A stretch of DNA of 21,991 nt, taken from the IMG/VR virus record IMGVR_UViG_3300042564_001213, positions 1 to 21,991 of that record; one strand, written 5' to 3'. This DNA comes from a virus. Below are positions 364 through 13,338 of the stretch, piece by piece (the stretch's first letter is position 1; each line of letters begins with the position of its first letter). The notes under the pieces are model-generated. The model worked only from the letters and a program-made list of their open reading frames with translations, was not told where the DNA came from and ran no database searches. Made by a program: the position numbers and the translations under genes.

Positions 364-3300
364 TTAATCAAATTTTATTTTACCATCAAATGTTAATTTA
401 TCATTATTAACGTTAACAGTTTTATATAAATTAGCAATATCTGTTTTTTGTTGTGTTTCAGTTGCAGGGTCAGGAACCGTAGTATATGTAAACTTTCTTA
501 ACTTACCTTTAGGATAAGCCGGTTGATTCACAAATTTTGAATAAGATTCTTTATCCCTAATTGTTTTAATAAATTTTTGTTCAGCAATTAACTCTTTTTT
601 TGTTAAATCCGCAAAATCATCACAAATATTATTAAATTTTCTAACTAACTTATTATCATTTTTTAGTTCACCACTAATAATTGCGTTCTTAAATTGTGTT
701 AGTTTATTATTATCATTAAAAATTTGAGCCATCACCATGAATTGTCTTTTATCTTGAACAGATGCTGTTGCAAAGTCTTTTGATATTGGTTCAAATTCTC
801 CCGGACCTTCATAAGGTACAGTAACTGTTGTAATTATTTTTTCAGCGTCCATCAGTACATTAAATTGGTCTAATCTAATACCAACTAAACGGTAATCATC
901 ACACAATTCTTGATAAGTATCCAAAGGTGGTCCAGGACTTGCAGTATTAACTTCTGTTGTTCCGGATATTGTATAAACTCTAGGAACTCCAGTATCTAAA
1001 ATCTTACCATCAGTTTTGGTTGTAACTAAATTTATTTTTCTAATAATTTGAACCATACTTTGCTCTAAAGTCACAATTTCTTGAATTTTAGTAAATAAAC
1101 CACTACTGTAATCACTTTTTAATGTGTTAATATATTGATTCATATTTGTTTTAACTCTTTGAATTGTTGCGTCAGTAAATTTAAACCCTATTAACCTTGA
1201 TATTATATAATTTTGATTAGTTGGATTATCAGCGTTAATGTCTGATATAAATGTACTAAATAATGAATCTACTTTAGTTTCAACACCTTCCGGTTTTCCA
1301 TAAATTGGTGCCAATATACTACTAGAATTTAAACTTATTTCTCCCGAAGTATATAATCTATCTTGAGTTATTAATTGCCACACACCATAATTGTACGATT
1401 TAACAATACTATCACTTTGATTTAAAACATTTGTATAATATTCTTTAGTCGCATCTAATATTTTATCCATAATGGTCATATAGGTAATTTCACCTGTTTG
1501 ACCACTAGTAACCGGAATATTAGTTAATATATCACCAATAGTATTTCCACCATCATTAACAATATCAGTTTGGACATTATCAACTGTGACAGGAGGTTGA
1601 GCATTTAAAATTGATTGTATTAATGTTGCATCTAACGCTGATGTATCTTCAGTCCATGTTGCTCTTTCATCATAAATTTCAGTATTAGCATAAAAGTTAA
1701 ACGATAATGCGTTTTGTAATTGTTCAACAGGCCTAGCTAATCCCATACCACCAATCATGTCAAAACTTAAATTAACATTTGCAATCATTGGTTGGACACC
1801 AATACCTTCCGGATTCATATCTAAAACTAATGGGTCATATGTAAATGAAATTGTTTTTGGAATTATTTTACCATTATAGAAATCCCCAATTCTTAATACT
1901 AAAACCGGTGGTGCACCAAATGCAGTATTAACCGCATCATTATATTTTGGTTTACCATCAACACCAATGACCGGTATTGTTTCACCAGGCCTTACACATT
2001 GATTTAAGAATGTTAATCGAGCATTTAAACCTTCAGGTGTCATAGAGTGAAATGCGGGGTTAAAGAATTTAATCTTATCCGCAATTGACCCATATAATAC
2101 AGGGTTACTTTCTTTAATAACTTCAAAATAATCACATTCACTTAATAATTGTCTAATAATTCGTTTTCCAATTCCTTCTTTCAATTTTTGTTGTATTTCA
2201 ACAGTTTGAACAGGTTTAATTGTATTAATTGTTGTCGCACTAACATCAGGAGTTATAATTTCAGTTTTTGGTGGTGGTGGCACATCTATTGGTGGAGTTG
2301 GTGTAATAAGAATACTATTAATTTTAACTCTTCTACAGGCCATCGCATCTGTTGAATACACTTGAGAAAATTTAGTAACTTGACCATTTTTATCTTTAAT
2401 ATCAACAGTACAATCAACTTGTGTTCCTGTACCTGACTCACCTTGAGGTATTGAAATTTGTTCACCCTTACCACTTTGTAATGTAATTTGTAAAGTTTGA
2501 TTATCAAAGAATGGAGCCAAATTAACATCACCAATACGATACGCTTTTAAGAATTGAATAACCGAATCATTTCTTCGTTTAGAAAGATTTTCATTATACG
2601 GGACACTAGCGGTCGCCGAAGCCGAACCAACCATTTGAATACTTATAGTTCCCTTTTTCTCTTTTAGAATATTGTAAGCATCTTTTATAAAATTATTATC
2701 ATTAACTGCAATTTTTTTATAATTAGACTCAACAATATTAGTAAAAAACTCACCAACATTTCTATTAGTACTACCCGCATTAAAAATACCACTTGCGGTA
2801 TCAACATATGTTTTAATATTTCCGGGACTAGTGTAAGCAGAATATGTTACATTATATGGAACTGAAGAAACCGTTCCGTTTGATTTTGGGTTAGGAATAT
2901 CATTATCAAAATAAAACGCCAATTGAGAATAATTCTTTTTAAAATCGTCAATTGATGTATCAGGATTTGTTATTTTTGTTGTTGCATCACCAGGTGTCCC
3001 CGCACCACCTTGAGTTACAGAATTTTCTCTTGTAATACTTATACTAACATTTTTTAATTCCTCATCAGTTAATCTTGGGTTACTTAAAATCTCTTGATAT
3101 GTATATAAATCTTTTGTTGGGATTGTATTAAATTTTAACGCTAATTCATAGATATCGTATTTAACACATCCCGCAAAGAATGAATCAATAATTGAATTTA
3201 TTCTTTCTTTATTTTGACCTTTTAATTGTTTTTCAACAACAGTATTCATTACAGATGGACTATCAACAATAATCTTCCAACTTAATTGTCCCGTTCTAGT

Positions 3301-5370
3301 TGTATTCTTGTAAGTATAAATTGGTTCCGGTCTACCCAAGAAAGAGGTGTCATTCCAATTGGCACTACTACTATCAGAGAATTTTAAATCATATGGTGGA
3401 AACCACATAACTCTACCACCATTTGGTCCTTTTTCACAAACAGGTAATTCGTCATAAGTAAAACCAGGTCTACTTGATGTTCTCCAAGCTAAGTTCTCAA
3501 TTGAGAACATATATTTTTTAGCATAACCCCCCGTTCCATTAACATTATTAGCGATAATGTTTGTTGAACCCGGATTTCTTAATGGAGCGATGTTTAAGTT
3601 ATATGTATTATCTAATACAGAGTGAGTAAATCTTCTACCCGCTGTAGTTATACCATCTGTTTTTTGTAAATCATTATATGTGTAATAAGGATTGTCTTTT
3701 GTAAAAACTCTACAATATTCAATTCCTGCCGCACCTCCTGTTGTATTATCAGTATATGATAACACTTGAGAACCTTTAGTAATTTCTTTATACCCATCAT
3801 TGAATACCTTACTAATTTGATTCATTGCATTACCAACGTGTTTTAATCGAGCAATACCTGTAACATTATCCGCAGAATCAATTAATCTTTGAGTTTGGTC
3901 TAATATGGAAGTTTCTTTAAACTCAATATTTGTTGATTCATCTCTTGTAATGTTTCCACTAACCAATTGATAATCCTCATCCATTGTTCCTGAACCACCT
4001 CCCGGTATTGCACGGAATCCGGCATTGGCTTTATATTTCGGAGATACCCAAACGAATCCTCCGTCAATACTATCAGTGTCAGCAAAGGACCTTCCTCCTA
4101 AACCAAAATTACTAAGAACCGATTCATTACCTTCATATAAAATACCCATCTCTGATGGACCGTATACAGGTGAAGGGTCTTGTTGACCAAAGGCGTTAAC
4201 AGGTATTTGATTTGGGGGTGATGTGATGTAAGAAGGTTCAGATGTTCTATTACCAACATAATAACCACCAACTAATGTACCATTACCCGGATTAATATTT
4301 GGAACTAATAAATTAACAAGACCTTGAGCAACCCCAAATAATAAACCATAATCTTTATCGTATGATGGTTGATATCTGTTGTAATTTATATTTGCAAATA
4401 AAACAGACCTTTGTCCATTACCCGTGTTTGCCAAGAATATTTGAGAACCACTTCTATTAAGATTTAAAATTGGACCTAAAAAACCACCTGTTAATTGATT
4501 AACGGTATTTAATGCGTTTGATGTCTGTTGTGTTTGACTATTCTCGTTATTATCATTGAAGTAATCTCCCGGTATTAACGAAACAGGCCAATAAGCCCCT
4601 GCTAATCTTGTTAAGAAGTCAGCAGCAGCAACAACAGGGTTTTCAGGTACAGTAATCTTCCAATTCTTATAAACTAAAGGTTGTTGTCCTGACAACATCA
4701 TACTAATCTCAAACGGGTCTTGTAGAGATTGTAAGTTGATTTGACCTAATGTGTTTTGGAATAATTCAGCATCAATTCTTTTTTTCAATAAAGAATTTAA
4801 TTCAATCGCCCCAAATCTTGCGATAAATGAATCTTGAGACAATAAACCATTACTACCAATTGGATTTGGTGATAATAAAATATTATATGGAGAATATGAT
4901 GAAGGAGCAAAACTTGGTGGCTCCCAATAAGGTTGATAAATCTTATTATTATTCTCAACATCAGTAATAATAACTAAATCATTATAACCACCATTAGGAC
5001 CATACGCATTTTGAATATAAGCGGCATCAATAAAAAATTCATTAAGTAAATCTAACGCAGTATCATTAGGGTTATATTCTCCTTGATTTGAATTAACAGG
5101 TAAAGGAGGTCCATTAAAATTAATGTCTAAATTATAACCCCCATTTGGTCCATATTCATTTAATGGATATAATAATTGAGCATACGGGTCATTTGTTATT
5201 AACTCACCCGGTGAATCAATAACATTACTAACACCTAAAATAGTTTCGTAATTAACTTGATTTGCTGGTGGAGTATAAACACCTTGAACACTGTAGGGTG
5301 CCAAGTTTTTTGCCATTAGAGAATTTCTAAAGGATGACGTGGACGCAAATGATAATGAACTATCTGACAT
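364..5370 (-). CDS. Very large baseplate/tail protein with embedded OmpA-like domain
   Basis: A 1668-residue protein between the tape measure and the gp53-like wedge gene, the slot of baseplate hub or spike components. Residues about 1-330 are Asn/Pro/Gly-rich and hold two copies of a YGPNGGYN motif. Residues about 650-705 contain WFPPYDL and then GRPEPIYTYKNTTRTG followed by a beta-strand, like the conserved core of Afp7/Pvc7-type baseplate proteins. Residues about 855-1020 look like an OmpA C-terminal peptidoglycan-binding domain: a beta-strand, GSASATAS, YNENLSKRRNDSV and a late ACRRVKI. Residues about 1170-1240 contain a second conserved segment (FTYDPLVLDMNPEGIGVQP, then LQNALSFNFYANTE). 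The C-terminus is polar and probably helical. I infer that it is structural and may contact cell-wall peptidoglycan. It could instead be several fused baseplate functions; the exact T4 equivalent is not clear. Confidence 0.62.
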   Translation of the reverse strand: MSDSSLSFASTSSFRNSLMAKNLAPYSVQGVYTPPANQVNYETILGVSNVIDSPGELITNDPYAQLLYPLNEYGPNGGYNLDINFNGPPLPVNSNQGEYNPNDTALDLLNEFFIDAAYIQNAYGPNGGYNDLVIITDVENNNKIYQPYWEPPSFAPSSYSPYNILLSPNPIGSNGLLSQDSFIARFGAIELNSLLKKRIDAELFQNTLGQINLQSLQDPFEISMMLSGQQPLVYKNWKITVPENPVVAAADFLTRLAGAYWPVSLIPGDYFNDNNENSQTQQTSNALNTVNQLTGGFLGPILNLNRSGSQIFLANTGNGQRSVLFANINYNRYQPSYDKDYGLLFGVAQGLVNLLVPNINPGNGTLVGGYYVGNRTSEPSYITSPPNQIPVNAFGQQDPSPVYGPSEMGILYEGNESVLSNFGLGGRSFADTDSIDGGFVWVSPKYKANAGFRAIPGGGSGTMDEDYQLVSGNITRDESTNIEFKETSILDQTQRLIDSADNVTGIARLKHVGNAMNQISKVFNDGYKEITKGSQVLSYTDNTTGGAAGIEYCRVFTKDNPYYTYNDLQKTDGITTAGRRFTHSVLDNTYNLNIAPLRNPGSTNIIANNVNGTGGYAKKYMFSIENLAWRTSSRPGFTYDELPVCEKGPNGGRVMWFPPYDLKFSDSSSANWNDTSFLGRPEPIYTYKNTTRTGQLSWKIIVDSPSVMNTVVEKQLKGQNKERINSIIDSFFAGCVKYDIYELALKFNTIPTKDLYTYQEILSNPRLTDEELKNVSISITRENSVTQGGAGTPGDATTKITNPDTSIDDFKKNYSQLAFYFDNDIPNPKSNGTVSSVPYNVTYSAYTSPGNIKTYVDTASGIFNAGSTNRNVGEFFTNIVESNYKKIAVNDNNFIKDAYNILKEKKGTISIQMVGSASATASVPYNENLSKRRNDSVIQFLKAYRIGDVNLAPFFDNQTLQITLQSGKGEQISIPQGESGTGTQVDCTVDIKDKNGQVTKFSQVYSTDAMACRRVKINSILITPTPPIDVPPPPKTEIITPDVSATTINTIKPVQTVEIQQKLKEGIGKRIIRQLLSECDYFEVIKESNPVLYGSIADKIKFFNPAFHSMTPEGLNARLTFLNQCVRPGETIPVIGVDGKPKYNDAVNTAFGAPPVLVLRIGDFYNGKIIPKTISFTYDPLVLDMNPEGIGVQPMIANVNLSFDMIGGMGLARPVEQLQNALSFNFYANTEIYDERATWTEDTSALDATLIQSILNAQPPVTVDNVQTDIVNDGGNTIGDILTNIPVTSGQTGEITYMTIMDKILDATKEYYTNVLNQSDSIVKSYNYGVWQLITQDRLYTSGEISLNSSSILAPIYGKPEGVETKVDSLFSTFISDINADNPTNQNYIISRLIGFKFTDATIQRVKTNMNQYINTLKSDYSSGLFTKIQEIVTLEQSMVQIIRKINLVTTKTDGKILDTGVPRVYTISGTTEVNTASPGPPLDTYQELCDDYRLVGIRLDQFNVLMDAEKIITTVTVPYEGPGEFEPISKDFATASVQDKRQFMVMAQIFNDNNKLTQFKNAIISGELKNDNKLVRKFNNICDDFADLTKKELIAEQKFIKTIRDKESYSKFVNQPAYPKGKLRKFTYTTVPDPATETQQKTDIANLYKTVNVNNDKLTFDGKIKFD

Positions 5371-5416: not shown

Positions 5417-7297
5417 TTACTTATTAGATAAGTTAGGATTCATTAGTTGTGTTTTATTTGACGTTGGGGCCAATAATCCATTACTATACATCGCCTCTTT
5501 TAATGCACTAACCATACCTTGTTGAACATCAGTATTCTTAAATGCTTGAACCACTTGATTAGTATCAATATTACCATTTGTTTTTAAATCAATATTATGA
5601 TTTAATGTTATTTCAATTGGTTTATTTGGTGCCGTATTATTTGATTGAGTATTAGTTGATGTTGCGGACGCATTTCTAACACTACCAATATTTCTTTTAA
5701 CATTTGCCGGATTAGCGTCTGACGATTGTTTTTTAATATTTGCAGTTCCTCTCATATCACCTGTAGTAATTTGTTGAAGTTGTCTCACAAGAGGAAAATC
5801 TTTATTTAATTTTTCGGCTTCTACACCAGCATTTTGTCTACTAGTCTCAATAGTGTTTTTAATAAATGAATTTAAATCTGTTAAATTTGTACCTAATTCT
5901 TTTGATGCTTGAGCTTTAGTTATTTCACCTTCAGATAACCTTTTTATTATATCTAAATTTTTATCAACACCGCTGTCGATTGAACTTCTAAGATTTTTTG
6001 ACTCCATTTGTTTTGGTGCCATCACTTTAGCAACACTTGATGTGGATGCTCTACCGAATTTTTGAAGACCAGTCATCGTTTTACCCCCCGCTAAACCTAA
6101 CCCTGTTCTATCCGCCATTGATGCAATATCCGCCGCCATAGCTTGTGTAGTACTTAATTGGTCTTTAGCCAATTCCTCCATAGTTTTTGGAGCGGTATTG
6201 GCCATTTTTTCAAGATTCGCAACGTCTTTTTCATTTAATTGGTCAAGTGCTTTGGTAATTGTTTGTCCTGTTTCTTGGTCTGTTACTTGAACTTCATATT
6301 TACCACCCGCACCCATTTCAGCCATATTGGCTATCATTTTTTGCTTATCTTCGTCTAATCCCGGTAAATCAGGAAAACGGATTTTACTCATTTTGTCTTC
6401 CAACTCAGCACTACCTAACGCCATTTTAGTCAATTGTTCGTAAGGAATACCCATCGCTTTTGAGATTTCTCTCATTTGACGTTTTGCTCCCGGCATGATT
6501 TCAAAATTACCATCCTTACCAAGTTGAACAAATTGCTTACTCATTTCCGCCATTTGATTTTGTAACTCGGCAGGGTCATTTTGTGCTAAGTCCATAAGTT
6601 TTAATGGGTCAAGTAAACTACTTTGAGACACACCTAATCTTTGCATGGCAGCAGCCATTTCAATCGCACCTTCAGGGTCAAACACTTTTTCAGCAAACGC
6701 TAATGTTTGTGACATATCAATTCTTAACAAACTTGCTTGTGCCGCCATTTTAGCTAAACCTGATACACCACCTTCAAAATTATATTTGTTAAGAGCGTCC
6801 ATATTTTGTAAGACTTTTGAGGATACATCAGCAGCATTTACACCTGATTGAGCGGCAATGTCAACAACGTTTTTCATTTCTTGAGCAACTTTTCCAGCCC
6901 CAATCCCAACATCTTTAAATCCTGTCACCAATTTACCAACATCTTGCCCGGTTACTTTCATTGTAGCGTAAAGGTCTTTATTTACTTCCGCAGATAATAT
7001 TACGTTTCTTTGTAAAGCACCTGAAGCATCCTGTTGTGTTTTAATAACGTCCGATATATCTCCACCTAAAGCCCTAACATTACTAACAGCATCAGCCATT
7101 GTTGCATTTAATGTTTGAGCCATTTCTTGACCAAGACCAAACTGTTTTAAAAGTAAACTAGCACCATTATCAAGTTCCTGTACAACCTTACTAACAGCCG
7201 CAACACTAAAATTACTTGCTAAAGCATCACCAAACGAGTCAATAATACCCTTACCTTTTTTTCCACTTGAGTCTAAACTACTATTAGCATCTTGCAT
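5417..7297 (-). CDS. Tape measure-like tail protein
   Basis: A 626-residue protein, about the size of T4 gp29 (590 residues). It is Ala-, Gln-, Lys- and Met-rich and predicted mostly helical, with long stretches such as VTGFKDVGIGAGKVAQEMKN and QNQMAEMSKQFVQLGKDG typical of tape measure proteins. Residues about 240-330 (FEIMPGAKRQMREISKAMGI and after) resemble a recurrent segment in such proteins of large phages. The tail after about residue 540 is Asn/Ser/Thr-rich and low in complexity. It lies directly downstream of the chaperone gene and upstream of the baseplate genes, the usual place of the gene that sets tail length. The start ATG follows the AT-rich leader with ACAA seven bases upstream and a TATTTATA motif 13 bases upstream. 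The role is inferred from composition and gene order, since tape measure proteins share little sequence. Confidence 0.65.
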   Translation of the reverse strand: MQDANSSLDSSGKKGKGIIDSFGDALASNFSVAAVSKVVQELDNGASLLLKQFGLGQEMAQTLNATMADAVSNVRALGGDISDVIKTQQDASGALQRNVILSAEVNKDLYATMKVTGQDVGKLVTGFKDVGIGAGKVAQEMKNVVDIAAQSGVNAADVSSKVLQNMDALNKYNFEGGVSGLAKMAAQASLLRIDMSQTLAFAEKVFDPEGAIEMAAAMQRLGVSQSSLLDPLKLMDLAQNDPAELQNQMAEMSKQFVQLGKDGNFEIMPGAKRQMREISKAMGIPYEQLTKMALGSAELEDKMSKIRFPDLPGLDEDKQKMIANMAEMGAGGKYEVQVTDQETGQTITKALDQLNEKDVANLEKMANTAPKTMEELAKDQLSTTQAMAADIASMADRTGLGLAGGKTMTGLQKFGRASTSSVAKVMAPKQMESKNLRSSIDSGVDKNLDIIKRLSEGEITKAQASKELGTNLTDLNSFIKNTIETSRQNAGVEAEKLNKDFPLVRQLQQITTGDMRGTANIKKQSSDANPANVKRNIGSVRNASATSTNTQSNNTAPNKPIEITLNHNIDLKTNGNIDTNQVVQAFKNTDVQQGMVSALKEAMYSNGLLAPTSNKTQLMNPNLSNK

Positions 7298-7310: not shown

Positions 7311-7318
7311 TATAAATA
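7311..7318 (-). promoter_or_regulatory. TATTTATA motif before the tape measure gene
   Basis: An exact TATTTATA on the coding strand, 13 bases before the tape measure ATG and directly next to the preceding terminator-like hairpin. This terminator-then-promoter arrangement suggests that the tape measure starts a new transcription unit. Confidence 0.45.
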
Positions 7319-7360
7319 AATACACCAAAGACATATTTTAATTTACGTCTCTGGTGTATT
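7319..7360 (-). terminator. Terminator-like hairpin after the chaperone genes
   Basis: Inverted repeat with arms 7319-7332 and 7347-7360 (AATACACC and GGTGTATT outside, one mismatch, then AGAC/GTCT) and a 14-base loop. On the minus strand it is followed by TTTATTTAT, a moderate U-rich tail. The stop codon of the chaperone's +1-frame extension (7343-7345) lies in the loop, so the hairpin sits exactly at the end of the extended reading frame. This supports the extension as the true end of the unit. Confidence 0.6.
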
Positions 7361-7498
7361 ATCTTCTATTATTCTATTTATTAAAAATTTTCTTACATAG
7401 GTTGGCATCTCATTGAAGTCTATATAAGATGTCCTAATGAACCTAGCCATCAAGTAATACTCCTCAATTAGAAGTTGTCGATAGTTAGAAGAAAGGCC
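7343..7498 (-). CDS. +1-frame extension of the tail assembly chaperone (probable frameshift product)
   Basis: Beyond the stop of the 251-residue chaperone, the +1 frame stays open for 51 codons and ends at a TAA inside the terminator hairpin. The encoded peptide reads GLSSNYRQLLIEEYYLMARF, then IRTSYIDFNEMPTYVRKFLI, then NRIIEDNTPET. A short helical segment with an aromatic-rich YYLM, an 'xxMPxYVRKFxI' motif and a charged end is the pattern of the C-terminal part of frameshifted tail chaperones (the T in G/GT systems). No stop separates it from the slip site at 7498-7514, and the position between tube and tape measure is exactly where such products are made. With a slip at UUU the fusion would be about 298 residues. 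A separate 35-residue protein starting at the ATG at 7450, preceded by GAGGAG, is the alternative. Confidence 0.62.
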   Translation of the reverse strand, partial: GLSSNYRQLLIEEYYLMARFIRTSYIDFNEMPTYVRKFLINRIIEDNTPET

Positions 7499-8240
7499 GA
7501 AAAAACTCCACCCCAAAGGTTATCTCGAAAGATACCAGTTCTCCTGACGGGGCGTTTGCTGTTCTTTTAAGGTCTAATGACGGTTCATTTTCTCTTAAAA
7601 AAGTTCTTATGTATTTAGAGTCCATAATAGGTAAAGTATCAACAAACATAGCTATTTTACCTCTATCAGAATCACCATCAATCTCAACAATTTGTTTTTG
7701 TAATTTCCAAGTAATTCTTGGTGCCTGTCTTCCTGCTGGGTATTGTTCAACCATTTTATCTAACTCAACAGTATCATAAAATGTTGTAGGTCTTAATTTA
7801 ACAGTAACCCCTGTTTTAGGTAACATTGTAGTAAATAAACCATTTTCATCAGGTTTATTTTGGGTTTTTTTGATATTTAACTCATCTAACACAACTGTAT
7901 GTACAAATGGTTTATCAGTTTGTGGGTCAATTAAATTAATTATATATTCCGCACCAAAAGAAGTATTTCTTAAAAATATTAAAATAGCTTCAACATCACC
8001 ATCTAATAATTCTTCAGGTCGTAAATCATGTTCATATAATTTATTTCTTAATAATGTTAATACAACATTTTCTTTACCCGCCAAAGCGCCAATTAAATAA
8101 TTTTCGTCAGATGCTGTTAGATAACCAACTTTAATTGACTTTTTTTTAGATTTATAAAAAATTCCACCACTTGGTAATGATACTACATCATGTGGTAATG
8201 TGAAATTTTCCGTTCCTGCGTTAATTAAACTCTCATCCAT
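7485..8240 (-). CDS. T4 gp26/gp51-like protein, probable tail assembly chaperone
   Basis: A 251-residue protein with the N-terminal signature FTLPHDVVSLPSGGIFY, like the LPSKG-type start of the T4 base-plate assembly (gp26-like) family. A helical middle follows (about residues 55-90, ending ILIFLRNTSFGAEYIINLID) and then a beta-rich part with VTVKLRPTTFYDTVELDKMV. It lies between the tail tube and the tape measure, the slot of tail assembly chaperones that coat the tape measure before tube growth. Its 3' end holds GAG-TTT-TTT-CGG and then a stop 12 bases later, while another frame continues (separate entry). In T4 the family is annotated as baseplate hub assembly; here the gene order and the frame extension argue for a chaperone role. 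A TATTTATA motif lies 43 bases before the ATG. Confidence 0.6.
   Translation of the reverse strand: MDESLINAGTENFTLPHDVVSLPSGGIFYKSKKKSIKVGYLTASDENYLIGALAGKENVVLTLLRNKLYEHDLRPEELLDGDVEAILIFLRNTSFGAEYIINLIDPQTDKPFVHTVVLDELNIKKTQNKPDENGLFTTMLPKTGVTVKLRPTTFYDTVELDKMVEQYPAGRQAPRITWKLQKQIVEIDGDSDRGKIAMFVDTLPIMDSKYIRTFLRENEPSLDLKRTANAPSGELVSFEITFGVEFFRPFF
7498..7514 (-). promoter_or_regulatory. Candidate programmed +1 frameshift site
   Basis: On the minus strand the message reads GGGGTGGAG-TTT-TTT-CGG. The peptidyl tRNA-Phe on the second UUU can re-pair with the overlapping UUC when it moves forward one base. The next zero-frame codon, CGG, should be rare in so AT-rich a genome and could stall the ribosome. 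The purine-rich GGAG ends three bases before the slip codon, the same spacing as the Shine-Dalgarno-like stimulator in the bacterial prfB +1 site. The parts are visible in the sequence; actual slippage is inferred. Confidence 0.55.
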
Positions 8241-8354: not shown

Positions 8355-8843
8355 TTAGTAAACTAATATACATCTATCCATACGAAGTACGGCTGAAATT
8401 GTTGCTAAAGCATCTGTACCGTACCCTAAAGAATCAAAGTTAACGTCAGATAAAAAAGTTCCCTCTAATATCCATTTTTCCACAACAACACCTGTTGGGT
8501 CTAACATCTCAAGGTCAATATTTTTCTTATATCCCGCAGCATACCCCATACGACCTGTAACTGACTCAGCACATAAACGTACCCACTCCATAAGAGCTTG
8601 TGACGCAGAAGGTCCAATTGGGTCACGGAATTTAACATTAATAGTTCCCCAAGTAAAACGACCTGCCACATAAGTTTCAGTATTTAAGAAAGGAATTGCT
8701 ACCGGATTAATTGTTATTTTTGGTCTTGCAGCCGATTCTACGAACCATTCATTAATTCCTAATGTTGAAGGAAAACGTAAAATAAACCTATTTTGTCTTT
8801 TAGGTTCGTAAGGTATGGGCATTTTCATTAATAAATCAGCCAT
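8355..8843 (-). CDS. Tail tube protein (gp19-like)
   Basis: A 162-residue protein, the same size as T4 gp19 (163 residues), which stacks as hexameric rings to form the inner tail tube. The N-terminal part, with PYEPKRQNRFILRFP and VESAARPKITI, and the segment WGTINVKFRDPIGPSASQAL then MEWVRL match the tube fold's strand and helix order. The C-terminal part (DLEMLDPTGVVVEKWILEGT then SDVNFDSLGY) is the other typical stretch. The ATG is chosen because MADLL begins right after the A-rich leader with ACAA six bases upstream. A strong terminator follows the gene and a near-match promoter-like motif precedes it, which suits a protein needed in high copy. Confidence 0.92.
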   Translation of the reverse strand: MADLLMKMPIPYEPKRQNRFILRFPSTLGINEWFVESAARPKITINPVAIPFLNTETYVAGRFTWGTINVKFRDPIGPSASQALMEWVRLCAESVTGRMGYAAGYKKNIDLEMLDPTGVVVEKWILEGTFLSDVNFDSLGYGTDALATISAVLRMDRCILVY

Positions 8844-9898: not shown

Positions 9899-12800
9899 TT
9901 ATATATTCTCGAAAGATGCTCCGGTTGGAGTGATATAGAACGTAATGTCTATAAATTCTAACGATTTGGTTGGTTTGATATAAATCTTACCTGTCATTTG
10001 ATTTCTGTCTAAATCAGCTGCGTCAGACGAAACAGTTACACGGAAATCATAAAGACCTCTATCTCTTCTTATAGAGTCTAATATTGGGTTAACTGAATCC
10101 AAGAAGTCTTGTCTTACTTTAGCATCGTTTTGTTCAAATAATAATCTAACAGAAACTGCAGATATTAATTTACGAGCTTGAAGTAATAATCTTCTTACGT
10201 TGATTCTGTCAAGAGCCGACTGTCTAATTTGAAGAGTTTTGTTACCCCAAATTACAGTTCCAACATCAGAGAAAGTTGCGATTGGATTTAAACGACCTTG
10301 ATATAGAGTATCTCTATTTTCTTGTGTCAATTTAATTCTCGCTTTAACCGCGTTTACAATACCTCTTGTGTAACCTGCCGCTGCGAACCAAGGGAACGCA
10401 ATGTTGTCGGTTAATGCCAAGTTTCTTGTGACTTCAGCCGTTGCTGGTAAGTAAATTTGTGTATTATTAACCGTATCTCTCATTAATACCCAAGGGTAGT
10501 AAGTAGCGGTATAGTTAGAGTCAATACCTGAATTAGCCAAATTATCTACAGCCTCTTGTGGGTAAATAAAATCTAATTGATTACTATTCGATGGAACATA
10601 CATATTGTAGTCAGGTGTTGTACATACGTACAATGAATCCGCTCTACTATATTCAATGATATCAATTGCGTTTTCAACTAAATTAGAGTTATTTACATAA
10701 TCAATACCAGGAGTAACAAATACGTTAATATTTACCGCTTCAGGATTTGCGAATGTTTGTTGACCTAATAAGTATGCGTAAAAATCGGTATTAGCATAAT
10801 CTTGAGTATTATCTGCAACAACAATTTGTTTAAATGCTCCCCAACCTGTTGCTGTTGGATATTTGATAGTAGGACAGGCACCTTTTAAATAACCTCTTCT
10901 ACCTAACATAAACTCATCTTTATTTGTTCTAAATTCTCTATAGATATCCCATCCGTCGAAACCACCTTTAACTAATAAGGTAAACTTACGAGCAAAAATT
11001 CTGTAGTATGGATTTTCTTCACTATCAGGGTCAGATGTAAACGGTGCATCACCACAAAAGAACGCCGGAGTACCACTAGTTACAAACACATTAGGAATTG
11101 TTATACCACTTGCGTTTTTATCCATGTGGAAACCTCTTGTTCTAAAATTCCAAGGATTACCTTCAGTATCGTTACAAATTGATAATGGAAGTTGAGTTCC
11201 TTTATATTGGAAGAAATCAACATCAATACCTTCAGTATCTGAAATACCTAAATAAGTTCTTCTAACATTATCACCCGCACTTGTAGTTGAGTCGTCCGCT
11301 CCTGATGCTAATCCAAATGGTGGGTTGTAAACAACTTCACCAGGGTAGTAATATTTAGCTTTGATTAATGGGAATGGTGGTCTTACACCAGCATATTCTC
11401 TATAATCATAACCTAAAAATCCACAAGGAAGTGCATCTATCGGTGCATCCTCATTCATTTCAACCATAATATAACTTGATAATAATGGATATTCACCATC
11501 TAAACTACCAATTTTCTTACCAATAAATGAATTATCTTGAGGGTTCATACTACAATTAGTATATTTTTCAAGAACAACCGGTGCTGAATCAGTATCAAAG
11601 AAATCTCTTACTAACACATCAAAAGTACCATTGTTAAATGACATATTCGCTAACGATATTTTAATATCAATGTTCGCAGCATCACCATCAGCAATAGTTG
11701 TGAATTTAAATAAGTTATAAACTTTATTACCTCTTAATTCAGATACAACCCACGGAGAAACCGGTGATTGATATTTCTCTAAATAAAACGCAATAGATGT
11801 AGGGTTGATTGCTTGTCTTGCATCCGGTAAAGCCGTCAATTCACAATTTAAACCTCTGATATAACCCATTCTCCAAGCATTTGTTAATAAAGCTTGGAAT
11901 GTTTCTTCAACAAATAATGGAACTACTGTTCTTGGTTTTGAGAAGTTAGTTGAACCAAATACTTTACTAACATATTTTGAATCAGAATTAGAGAATGATG
12001 TTTCAAAGAAATATTGGTCACCATCTTTACTTGTTATATTAACACCAAATGTTGAAAATGGGTTTTTAGTAACACCTGAATATGTTCCAGTACAATCTAA
12101 TGTAACCGCAGAACCATCAAATTCACCATAACCATTAACACCACCCGGTACTTCATAAACAGGACCATCATCAAGACCATATGTTGATAAACCTCTTGAA
12201 CGAAGTGTTGCGATTACTAAATCATCATAATCAGTATATGCTGTCCCCGAATAAATATAAATTACCCCAATCAATGTACCTGTATAACAATTAACCGGTT
12301 TTGCCGTTGTTGTTGAAGTAGTTGATGTTGAAGTAGTTGTTGTACAAGGGTTTGTAGTTGTGGTCGTAGTTGACGTTGATGTTGTTGTTGTAATAATAGG
12401 TGTTAATGTTAATCCTGTTACAACTGACCAAAATGAATAACCTGTATAAACAGCATTACCTACATTATCAAATAATGAATAATACCAAGGGTCATTTTGT
12501 GGTGCAGAATAATTACATAAGTTAGCACTTACATTATCTACTTCATAAACGTTTGTTTCACCAGTATACACAGAACTTAATCCTGAATAAACACTAGTTG
12601 GAATTGCCCCATAATAATAGATTGAAGTATCTTCTTTAGCCGGTGTTGAAACAATATCAAAAATTTGTTTAGACATATCTTGATATAATGAACTCATAGA
12701 ACCGTCAAATTGTTCATAAGGTTCGTATAAAATTGTAGATATTTCTGCCGGTAAATTAGTTGTGTTTGTAAAACTAACAGTATCAATACTATTAGTACAC

Positions 12801-13252
12801 GCCGAGAATTCAACCGAATAGTTTATAGTTTTAAAGTCAATACATTCAATAATACAATCAACTGTAGTTGCACTTTCACAAAAGAAATCAACCGTTGTTG
12901 GGTTAACATTTGCTTTAGTTGTTATAGACCAAGATGGTCCTGCATCATAACCAGATAATCCTAACACTCTCGTTACGAATAATTGGTTAGATTGTTGTAA
13001 GTAGGATTTAGCAATGTAAGCTGCTTCGTACTTTGGAATTTGTGTATTTATAAATTTTTCTGGAGAAGTTCCACCGAAGAAATTTGTGAATTCATCAAAA
13101 TTTCGTATAAAGATAGGTTCGAAAGCGGGACCTTTTAAGGTCTCACCCACAATACCCAACGTGGTAACTCCCACACTTTGTGCTACGAAACTTAAATCAA
13201 CTTCAGAAGTATATACTCCGGGAGATACGAATACTTTTTGATTTGATGCCAT
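9899..13252 (-). CDS. Contractile tail sheath protein with large Thr/Ser-rich insert (gp18-like)
   Basis: A 1117-residue sheath protein, against 659 for T4 gp18. The N-terminus FVSPGVYTSEVDLS and the following GETLKGPAFEP are the sheath signature. The C-terminal 250 residues (AFPWFAAAGYTRGIV, LYQGRLNPIATF, SALDRINVRRLLL, FRVTVSSDA then DLDRNQMTGKIYI) form the conserved core that locks neighbouring subunits. Between about residues 130 and 400 lies an extra region, including a Thr/Ser-rich stretch at about 281-318 and a Cys-containing beta-rich segment (about 319-390), probably displayed on the outside of the tail. I start at the ATG at 13252, because MASNQKVFVSPGVYT is the usual sheath start; 20 codons upstream in frame are A/T-rich leader. 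ACAA lies four bases before this ATG. Confidence 0.93.
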   Translation of the reverse strand: MASNQKVFVSPGVYTSEVDLSFVAQSVGVTTLGIVGETLKGPAFEPIFIRNFDEFTNFFGGTSPEKFINTQIPKYEAAYIAKSYLQQSNQLFVTRVLGLSGYDAGPSWSITTKANVNPTTVDFFCESATTVDCIIECIDFKTINYSVEFSACTNSIDTVSFTNTTNLPAEISTILYEPYEQFDGSMSSLYQDMSKQIFDIVSTPAKEDTSIYYYGAIPTSVYSGLSSVYTGETNVYEVDNVSANLCNYSAPQNDPWYYSLFDNVGNAVYTGYSFWSVVTGLTLTPIITTTTSTSTTTTTTNPCTTTTSTSTTSTTTAKPVNCYTGTLIGVIYIYSGTAYTDYDDLVIATLRSRGLSTYGLDDGPVYEVPGGVNGYGEFDGSAVTLDCTGTYSGVTKNPFSTFGVNITSKDGDQYFFETSFSNSDSKYVSKVFGSTNFSKPRTVVPLFVEETFQALLTNAWRMGYIRGLNCELTALPDARQAINPTSIAFYLEKYQSPVSPWVVSELRGNKVYNLFKFTTIADGDAANIDIKISLANMSFNNGTFDVLVRDFFDTDSAPVVLEKYTNCSMNPQDNSFIGKKIGSLDGEYPLLSSYIMVEMNEDAPIDALPCGFLGYDYREYAGVRPPFPLIKAKYYYPGEVVYNPPFGLASGADDSTTSAGDNVRRTYLGISDTEGIDVDFFQYKGTQLPLSICNDTEGNPWNFRTRGFHMDKNASGITIPNVFVTSGTPAFFCGDAPFTSDPDSEENPYYRIFARKFTLLVKGGFDGWDIYREFRTNKDEFMLGRRGYLKGACPTIKYPTATGWGAFKQIVVADNTQDYANTDFYAYLLGQQTFANPEAVNINVFVTPGIDYVNNSNLVENAIDIIEYSRADSLYVCTTPDYNMYVPSNSNQLDFIYPQEAVDNLANSGIDSNYTATYYPWVLMRDTVNNTQIYLPATAEVTRNLALTDNIAFPWFAAAGYTRGIVNAVKARIKLTQENRDTLYQGRLNPIATFSDVGTVIWGNKTLQIRQSALDRINVRRLLLQARKLISAVSVRLLFEQNDAKVRQDFLDSVNPILDSIRRDRGLYDFRVTVSSDAADLDRNQMTGKIYIKPTKSLEFIDITFYITPTGASFENI
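12296..12410 (-). repeat. Trinucleotide-rich tract encoding the Thr/Ser-rich linker of the sheath
   Basis: A GTT/GTA/GTC-rich stretch (ACN and TCN codons on the coding strand) encoding runs of Thr and Ser broken by NPC and AKP. It includes a 15-base tandem repeat, TGTTGAAGTAGTTG at 12311-12324 and again at 12326-12339. Such tracts tend to change length by slippage, so the linker may vary between relatives. Confidence 0.7.
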
Positions 13253-13288
13253 TAGTTTGTCTTTTTTATTTGTAAATTTATTTTTATT

Positions 13289-13296
13289 GATAAATA
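13289..13296 (-). promoter_or_regulatory. TATTTATC motif before the sheath gene
   Basis: A seven-of-eight match to TATTTATA on the coding strand, 36 bases before the sheath ATG. The same TATTTATC variant occurs before the gene starting at 15934. Candidate promoter element. Confidence 0.35.
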
Positions 13297-13311
13297 TTAT
13301 AAAAAAAACCA

Positions 13312-13338
13312 AAATACTTTACTTCATAAGAAGTATTT
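13312..13338. repeat. Inverted repeat in the sheath/RHH divergent region
   Basis: AAATACTT at 13312-13319 and AAGTATTT at 13331-13338 form an 8-bp inverted repeat with an 11-base spacer, overlapping the TATTTATA motif of the RHH gene. It lies between two divergently transcribed genes and is a plausible operator for the ribbon-helix-helix protein encoded next to it. That function is inferred from position. Confidence 0.4.

Follow-up and report, generated by a model that had tools for sequence, protein, structure and literature searches.

Gene organization at the tail locus

The DNA analyzed here, which we call the window, is a 21,991-base virus record (IMG/VR record IMGVR_UViG_3300042564_001213) whose minus strand carries, in order, a tail tube gene, a T4 gp26-like gene, an ORF in the +1 frame and a long gene at the tape measure position (Table 1). 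The product of the gp26-like gene scores above the curated cut-off of PF12322 (E 2.9e-7, 30.8 bits, cut-off 24.5) and matches phrog_150 as its sole phrog family (E 7.2e-11), and the gene sits between the tube gene and the tape measure position, as expected of a tail assembly chaperone (TAC). With the phrog_4542 match of the upstream neighbor, these results bear out the original prediction, made from the sequence without database searches, of a T4-gp26-like chaperone between tube and tape measure. The long downstream gene probably encodes the tape measure protein, the same place being annotated as tape measure in immuto and LIS04; Pfam and phrog profile searches gave this gene no convincing family.

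The 0-frame gene ends in TTT TTT CGG CCT TTC TTC TAA. The slip string, GGGGTGGAGTTTTTTCGG, occupies positions 7497-7514 on the minus strand, and the +1 frame is closed immediately upstream of the slip site and open for 51 codons beyond it. On re-checking, the coordinates first given for the chaperone frame, for the +1 frame and for its stop within a hairpin were all right.

Table 1. Positions of the chaperone gene, its proposed slip site and its neighbors in the window
Feature	Position	Strand	Remark
Tail tube protein (gp19-like), upstream neighbor	8355..8843	-	phrog_4542 E 5.8e-25
T4 gp26-like tail assembly chaperone, short form (TAC-N), 251 aa	7485..8240	-	0 frame
GGGG upstream of slip site	7511..7514	-	invariant in window clade only
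Proposed slippery Phe-Phe pair TTT TTT	7500..7505	-	first TTT 7505-7503, P-site TTT 7502-7500
0-frame A-site codon CGG (Arg)	7497..7499	-	rare codon by count
Predicted +1-frame C-terminal extension, 51 codons (GLSSNYRQ...NTPET)	7346..7498	-	starts at GGC, 7498
Stop codon of +1 frame	7343..7345	-	
Long predicted hairpin around +1 stop	7314..7364	-	fold -24.5 kcal/mol (80 nt folded)
Probable tape measure protein, downstream neighbor	5417..7297	-	basis: position

Conservation of the slip site and of the +1 frame

We scanned IMG/VR with the window chaperone, using the best 80 of 452 loci, and with its immuto and Mel-JY01 homologues, using the best 80 loci each. Together with the window, immuto and Mel-JY01 these three scans gave 243 loci, of which three are cut off by the contig end ahead of the 0-frame stop and 240 remain (81 window-like, 80 immuto-like and 79 Mel-JY01-like). 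The +1 frame is open past the 0-frame stop in 240/240 loci, to its own stop or to the contig end, and reaches at least 100 nt past the stop in 236, the other four being cut by contig ends; the third frame reaches 100 nt in 20 of the 240. An open +1 frame on this scale is far beyond chance. The pattern FFGLxxxYRxxL...VYNMPxxxR is conserved across the slip junction and the extension, and the alignment of relatives, which had been put forward as a check, showed both the slip site and the +1 frame to be conserved, with no stops in the extensions.

Slip codons vary little within each clade. Window-like loci read TTT TTT CGN in 80 of 81 cases, and thus carry the UUU_CGN motif, and TTT TTT CTC in the remaining one. 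The 80 immuto-like loci have TTT, followed by TTT (40), CTT (36) or CTA (4) and then by TGG (79) or TAC (1), and the 79 Mel-JY01-like loci have TTT TTT (76) or CTT TTT (3) and then TGG (77) or TAC (2). The codon after the A site is CCT throughout (240/240). A stop codon in the A site, a feature of prfB-type sites, occurs at none of the 240 loci, where this position holds CGN, CTC, UGG or UAC. In one locus (L073), whose 3' end is intact, the reading frame breaks within an A run around residue 36 of the chaperone, a break that is either real or an assembly error.

Ten fetched records annotate a stand-alone small hypothetical protein over the 3' part of the extension, sharing the extension stop (L082 3836-3946, L084 3755-3874, L086 3001-3237, L090 3201-3377, L092 3388-3510, L279 2028-2237, L282 2076-2252, L283 2142-2336, L285 2028-2258 and L286 2073-2228). 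Such separate annotations include immuto35A_232, SP15_046 and 121Q 595, and a joined chaperone is annotated in none of the ten.

Selection on the extension and on the slip codons

For the analysis of selection, exact duplicates and truncated rows were removed, leaving 180 distinct sequences (44 window-like, 65 immuto-like and 71 Mel-JY01-like), and pN/pS was computed from pairs 75-98.5% identical only. Past the 0-frame stop, pN/pS in the +1 frame was 0.134, 0.177 and 0.188 in the window-like, immuto-like and Mel-JY01-like sets, as compared with 0.229, 0.207 and 0.197 for the 0-frame gene and with 1.30-2.52 for the extension DNA read in its other two frames. The first ten codons of the extension gave 0.078, 0.196 and 0.137 in the same order. 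The extension is under purifying selection, its start included; a codon-substitution test for such selection had been proposed with the original prediction.

Synonymous variation is likewise low at the slip codons. In every clade synonymous heterozygosity is 0 at the first slip TTT; at the second slip codon it is 0, 0.117 and 0 (window-, immuto- and Mel-JY01-like), the value of 0.117 coming from CTT/CTA, and the mean over the gene is 0.256, 0.383 and 0.455. All 44 distinct window-like sequences have TTT TTT, with a synonymous heterozygosity of 0. Among upstream codons, a score of zero occurs at none of 192 in the immuto and Mel-JY01 clades but at 14.8% of 189 in the window clade, which makes a zero alone weaker evidence in the latter.

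Alternative explanations for the open +1 frame

The +1 ORF could instead be a separate small gene with a start of its own, reached by reinitiation or internal initiation, as the annotation of the extension end in the ten fetched records would have it. Potential starts are common: an in-frame ATG lies past the stop in all 44 window-like sequences, 178 of the 180 sequences hold an ATG, GTG or TTG somewhere in the open +1 stretch (ATG in 172), and 138 have a start codon at or before the 0-frame stop (ATG in 51). However, their positions are scattered: past the stop, the first ATG has index 3, 11 or 25 in window-like sequences and other indices in the two remaining clades, in contrast to the conserved separate start that had been named among the findings that would speak against a frameshift. 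Over the whole open stretch 8 of the 180 sequences lack an ATG and 2 lack ATG, GTG and TTG alike, and past the stop 13 and 4 do, respectively. In the window clade no sequence has an ATG before the stop (0/44; TTG or GTG only) and 39/44 have none in the +1 frame before codon ten, yet the first ten codons are the most constrained. A separate gene would also leave the invariant slip codons, and the U_UUU_UUC of the -1 relatives described below, unexplained, and we consider it very unlikely.

Slippage of RNA polymerase on the T run, which would change the mRNA rather than the frame of the ribosome, would suit the runs of 6 or 7 T in many relatives, but half of the immuto-like loci (40/80) have a T run of at most 3 at the site (TTT CTT TGG in 35, TTT CTA TGG in 4 and TTT CTT TAC in 1) and still keep the +1 extension, which makes this explanation very unlikely. 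A slip by -2, as phage Mu reportedly uses, leads to the same frame as +1, and a U run permits re-pairing in both directions; by pairing rules, however, the TTT CTA TGG variants and LR756508 (TTT CTA TTC) should re-pair well only from UUU to UUC, and we consider a -2 slip equally unlikely. A sequencing or assembly indel, suspected from the start given a shift at a homopolymer, or a decayed gene, can practically be dismissed, as the open frame recurs in 180 distinct sequences from three clades with no extension stops and strong purifying selection, which excludes an indel in the T run.

Sequence context of the slip site

CGG occurs once in the 5005 codons of the window's 11 minus-strand genes, namely at the slip site itself. 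The A-site codon is CGN in 43 of the 44 distinct window-like sequences and CTC in one; CGG and CGC together make up 31 of these 44 slip codons, and elsewhere in the window-clade gp26 genes arginine is encoded by AGA in 363 of 452 cases and never by CGG or CGC. The suggestion that CGG would be slow thus holds as far as its rarity goes, and slow decoding itself is plausible from that rarity. Since the A-site codon is UGG in most relatives, rare-codon pausing is not the whole story.

Upstream, the GGGG is made up of a GGG codon and the first G of GTN in 44/44 window-like sequences, and a GGG codon is present in 43 of the 65 immuto-like and 9 of the 71 Mel-JY01-like sequences. The GGAG three bases before the slip codon, which had been likened to the Shine-Dalgarno element of prfB, is not conserved: it is found in 14/44 window-like, 0/65 immuto-like and 0/71 Mel-JY01-like sequences, and given this lack of conservation a prfB-like Shine-Dalgarno is not supported as a general stimulator. 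Judged by eye, a Shine-Dalgarno-like leader precedes 1 of 15 gene starts in the window and is missing from the other 14, a scarcity that suggests a Bacteroidota host. The F. johnsoniae prfB shift site retains a Shine-Dalgarno though ribosomes there generally ignore such signals (PMC8710568), and given this precedent the GGGG may still have a role. A downstream RNA stimulator was not found, mean folding z being -0.44, 0.37 and -0.73 for 30 sequences per clade against mononucleotide shuffles.

Predicted structure

The fused 298-residue protein was modeled with AlphaFold2 from 31 plain 0-frame rows, giving a mean pLDDT of 81.5, with the extension predicted at low confidence as two helices (pLDDT blocks 48-71). 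The best PDB match by Foldseek was the HK97 tail assembly chaperone (E 0.11, probability 0.97). Comparison by VIA-align of the fold predicted for residues 132-221 gave Z 5.6 with both HK97 gp13 (2ob9; 79 aligned, rmsd 3.3) and YqbN (3klu; 83 aligned, rmsd 3.4), the next PDB fold listed falling to Z 2.5; as a Z below 8 in VIA-align can mean a common arrangement, the chaperone matches at Z 5.6 are moderate. YqbN is termed a phage tail assembly chaperone in PMC9603447. Named matches in BFVD include SP-15 and T4-like hub or hub-assembly proteins, and a sequence search of the PDB returned nothing useful.

Homologous extensions in the +1 and -1 frames

Among ten distant phage records, eight have an open +1 extension (immuto, LR756508, SP-15, GXN1, Mel-JY01, LIS04, QdP_Psa3 and RM378), immuto and Mel-JY01 being counted in the 240 loci too and the call for RM378 and QdP_Psa3 being made from the open frame alone. 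The other two, LR756511 and Atu_ph07, have a -1 extension at T TTT TTC. QdP_Psa3 had been taken to hold two gp26-like genes, which was wrong; the upstream ORF is unlike gp26 and, by eye, tube-like. Contigs binned with bacterial or archaeal genomes number 14, of which one runs off and the 13 analyzable ones are all +1, two of these deriving from one genome. Further viral loci comprised two near-copies with +1 (L269 and L270), a metagenome contig with -1 (L253) and Atu_ph07 again (L254), and scans with GXN1 and Atu_ph07 returned one locus each, the latter being Atu_ph07 itself. Eight jumbo phages picked from the 69 records matching Atu_ph07 were all -1 (121Q, RaK2, PA5oct, GAP32, SCTP-2, CM1, Phosso and Hallingskeid), with the site T TTT TTC in seven and T TTT TTT in CM1.

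When the two extension families were compared by hhalign, a single comparison gave a probability of 96.8% and E 2.2e-10; wrong-frame controls, in which the DNA of the -1 group was read in the other two frames, gave E 0.83 and 0.087. By this comparison the +1 and -1 extensions are homologous, and opposite slips would reach the same domain.

Relation to T4 gp26 and gp51

T4 gp26 and gp51 both belong to phrog_150, covering model positions 14-235 and 13-280 of 282, respectively, such that gp51 is a full gp26-like domain with a C-terminal tail. Profile searches of whole records with phrog_150 found two genes in T4, two in Aes508 and one in each of 11 shifting phages (immuto, LR756508, SP-15, GXN1, Mel-JY01, LIS04, RM378, Atu_ph07, 121Q, RaK2 and PA5oct). 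The window, a 22-kb fragment, has one phrog_150 gene and a marginal 11.8-bit match inside the tape-measure-like gene. Counting one place per record by tblastn proved an unfair test for a second gene and was set aside, the gp51 query finding 1407 places in 1339 records, mostly T4-like.

The immuto and Mel-JY01 chaperones match phrog_150, and a profile search gave them no Pfam match. Fusion extends phrog_150 coverage in Mel-JY01 from position 233 for the 0-frame form to 274 and in the window from 233 to 240, and gains nothing in immuto. By hhalign, seven gp26-like proteins of the Straboviridae type, with that of EC-F2 picked by position, matched seven gp51 proteins at 99.3% (E 5e-20). The N domain of the -1 group matched Straboviridae gp26 at 98.0% (E 2.4e-13), and the match of the +1 group was weak (12.9%, P 0.002). 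Both extension sets align collinearly but weakly with the gp51 tail (P 0.009 for +1, 0.0008 for -1), and comparing the extension with T4 gp51 as single sequences gave no significant match. In a 57-row tree the gp26 and gp51 rows form one group (100/99), and the gp51 rows make up a single clade (100/99). This tree needs four changes for four labels, the minimum possible being three; its midpoint root is for drawing only and several long branches meet, which leaves the number and order of changes unsure.

We consider it likely that one family with one Phe-Phe site has taken three routes to a long form, namely a +1 slip at UUU_CGN or UUU_UGG, a -1 slip at U_UUU_UUC (jumbo phages such as 121Q, RaK2 and PA5oct) and a duplicated gene (gp26 and gp51 of the Straboviridae), the direction having flipped while site and domain were kept.

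A proposed +1 frameshift and its relation to known systems

Collectively, the neighboring tube gene, the conserved slip site, the selection on the +1 frame, the chaperone-like fold prediction and the homologous extensions point to a T4-type tail assembly chaperone of which programmed +1 ribosomal frameshifting makes a short and a long form, a reading to which we assign a probability of roughly 0.9. The core of the original prediction, a +1 frameshift in a T4-gp26-like chaperone, thus gains support from the slip-site conservation and the selection seen across related sequences. In this reading, for which the shift, its frequency, the step at the tRNA and the part played in tail assembly are all inferred, most ribosomes would stop after the 251 residues of the short form, and a minority would hold peptidyl-tRNA-Phe on UUU in the P site with the rare and probably slowly read CGG in the A site. 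The tRNA would then slip one base forward from the codon at 7502-7500 and re-pair with UUC (TTC, 7501-7499), making GGC the next codon, and 51 codons read from there would give a long form of 298 residues. If the system works as lambda G/GT does, the tape measure protein would be coated by many copies of the short form and few of the long one, whose additional C-terminal domain would recruit tail tube subunits or hold them in position.

Lambda G/GT, and the tail assembly chaperone frameshift in general, were reportedly described by Xu, Hendrix and Duda in 2004. The lambda system (reviewed in PMC5009743) resembles the present one: a single gene that follows the tail tube gene yields a short chaperone and one extended at its C terminus, through a shift near the 3' end; however, lambda shifts by -1, and the window family is PF12322. 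Vladimirov, Gautam and Davidson reportedly treated T4-like chaperones in 2022, in a paper cited by PMC10885494 and PMC12846349 whose title speaks of another mechanism. T4 gp26 and gp51 share the phrog_150/PF12322 family with the window chaperone, but in T4 and Aes508 the short and long forms are separate genes, whereas the shifting phages have one gene. According to PMC5009743, long-tailed phages other than T4 keep the G-T shift, and the present family ties gp26 and gp51 of this named exception to the two-chaperone frameshift rule. This link hints at how the T4 exception arose, the order of events left aside.

For haloviruses of the HF1/HSTV-2 group, a proposed +1 TAC frameshift at TTT-CGC is described in PMC7230728 and PMC5009743. 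These viruses resemble the window in gene position, in the +1 direction and in a UUU_CGN that sits in a conserved block close to the short chaperone's end. The HF1 chaperones, however, fall in phrog_14268 and phrog_12163 and have no PF12322 match, whereas the window chaperone matches phrog_150 only, and we rejected the HF1 chaperone as a member of the same family on these grounds. The original prediction called +1 shifting rare, with Listeria phage PSA as the example; a +1 shift in a tail chaperone had already been proposed in the haloviruses, and the PSA cases concern capsid and tail-shaft genes. UUU_CGN +1 sites are also known from influenza PA-X and plant amalgaviruses, as cited in PMC7230728. 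They share the UUU ahead of CGN at a +1 shift but involve eukaryotic ribosomes and unrelated genes, and most phage relatives here have UUU_UGG.

For Pakpunavirus Adele and the Andersonviridae, a -1 TAC frameshift with GTTTTT is described in PMC12846349, which also credits poly-T -1 signals in T4-like chaperones to Vladimirov 2022. Like the window, Adele and the Andersonviridae have a myovirus chaperone gene with a poly-T slip site close to its 3' end, but they shift by -1 and belong to other phage families. The -1 part of the PF12322 family may already be known. A search of mostly open-access literature turned up no account of +1 shifting in PF12322 chaperones. The TAC frameshift and the halovirus +1 proposal are thus known, and the +1 variant in the PF12322 family, of which we found no report, may be new.

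To our knowledge, bacterial +1 sites are few outside prfB. The present family offers hundreds of natural variants of one +1 site, with no stop codon and in most cases no Shine-Dalgarno, in phages of which one has a Flavobacterium host. With homologous sites of both kinds, +1 and -1, what determines the slip direction can be studied as a natural experiment. The annotation of the extension ends in the ten fetched records as separate small hypothetical proteins would be corrected to the C-terminal part of the long chaperone.

Other features of the region

The hairpin around the +1 stop may be a terminator-like or processing element ahead of the tape-measure gene, or part of a promoter region. The median fold of the 70 nt around the +1 stop is -19.7, -17.1 and -17.4 kcal/mol in the window-like, immuto-like and Mel-JY01-like sets, as values without shuffle control. 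In printed examples of the three clades a hairpin lies around or after the +1 stop, often with a TATTTATA-like stretch after it. Downstream of the tape measure gene, the window holds a 1668-aa ORF (364-5370) with a weak OmpA-like match, possibly a large hub or baseplate fusion protein. The sheath gene at 9899-13312 is unusually long (1137 aa) and includes a Thr-rich repeat stretch.
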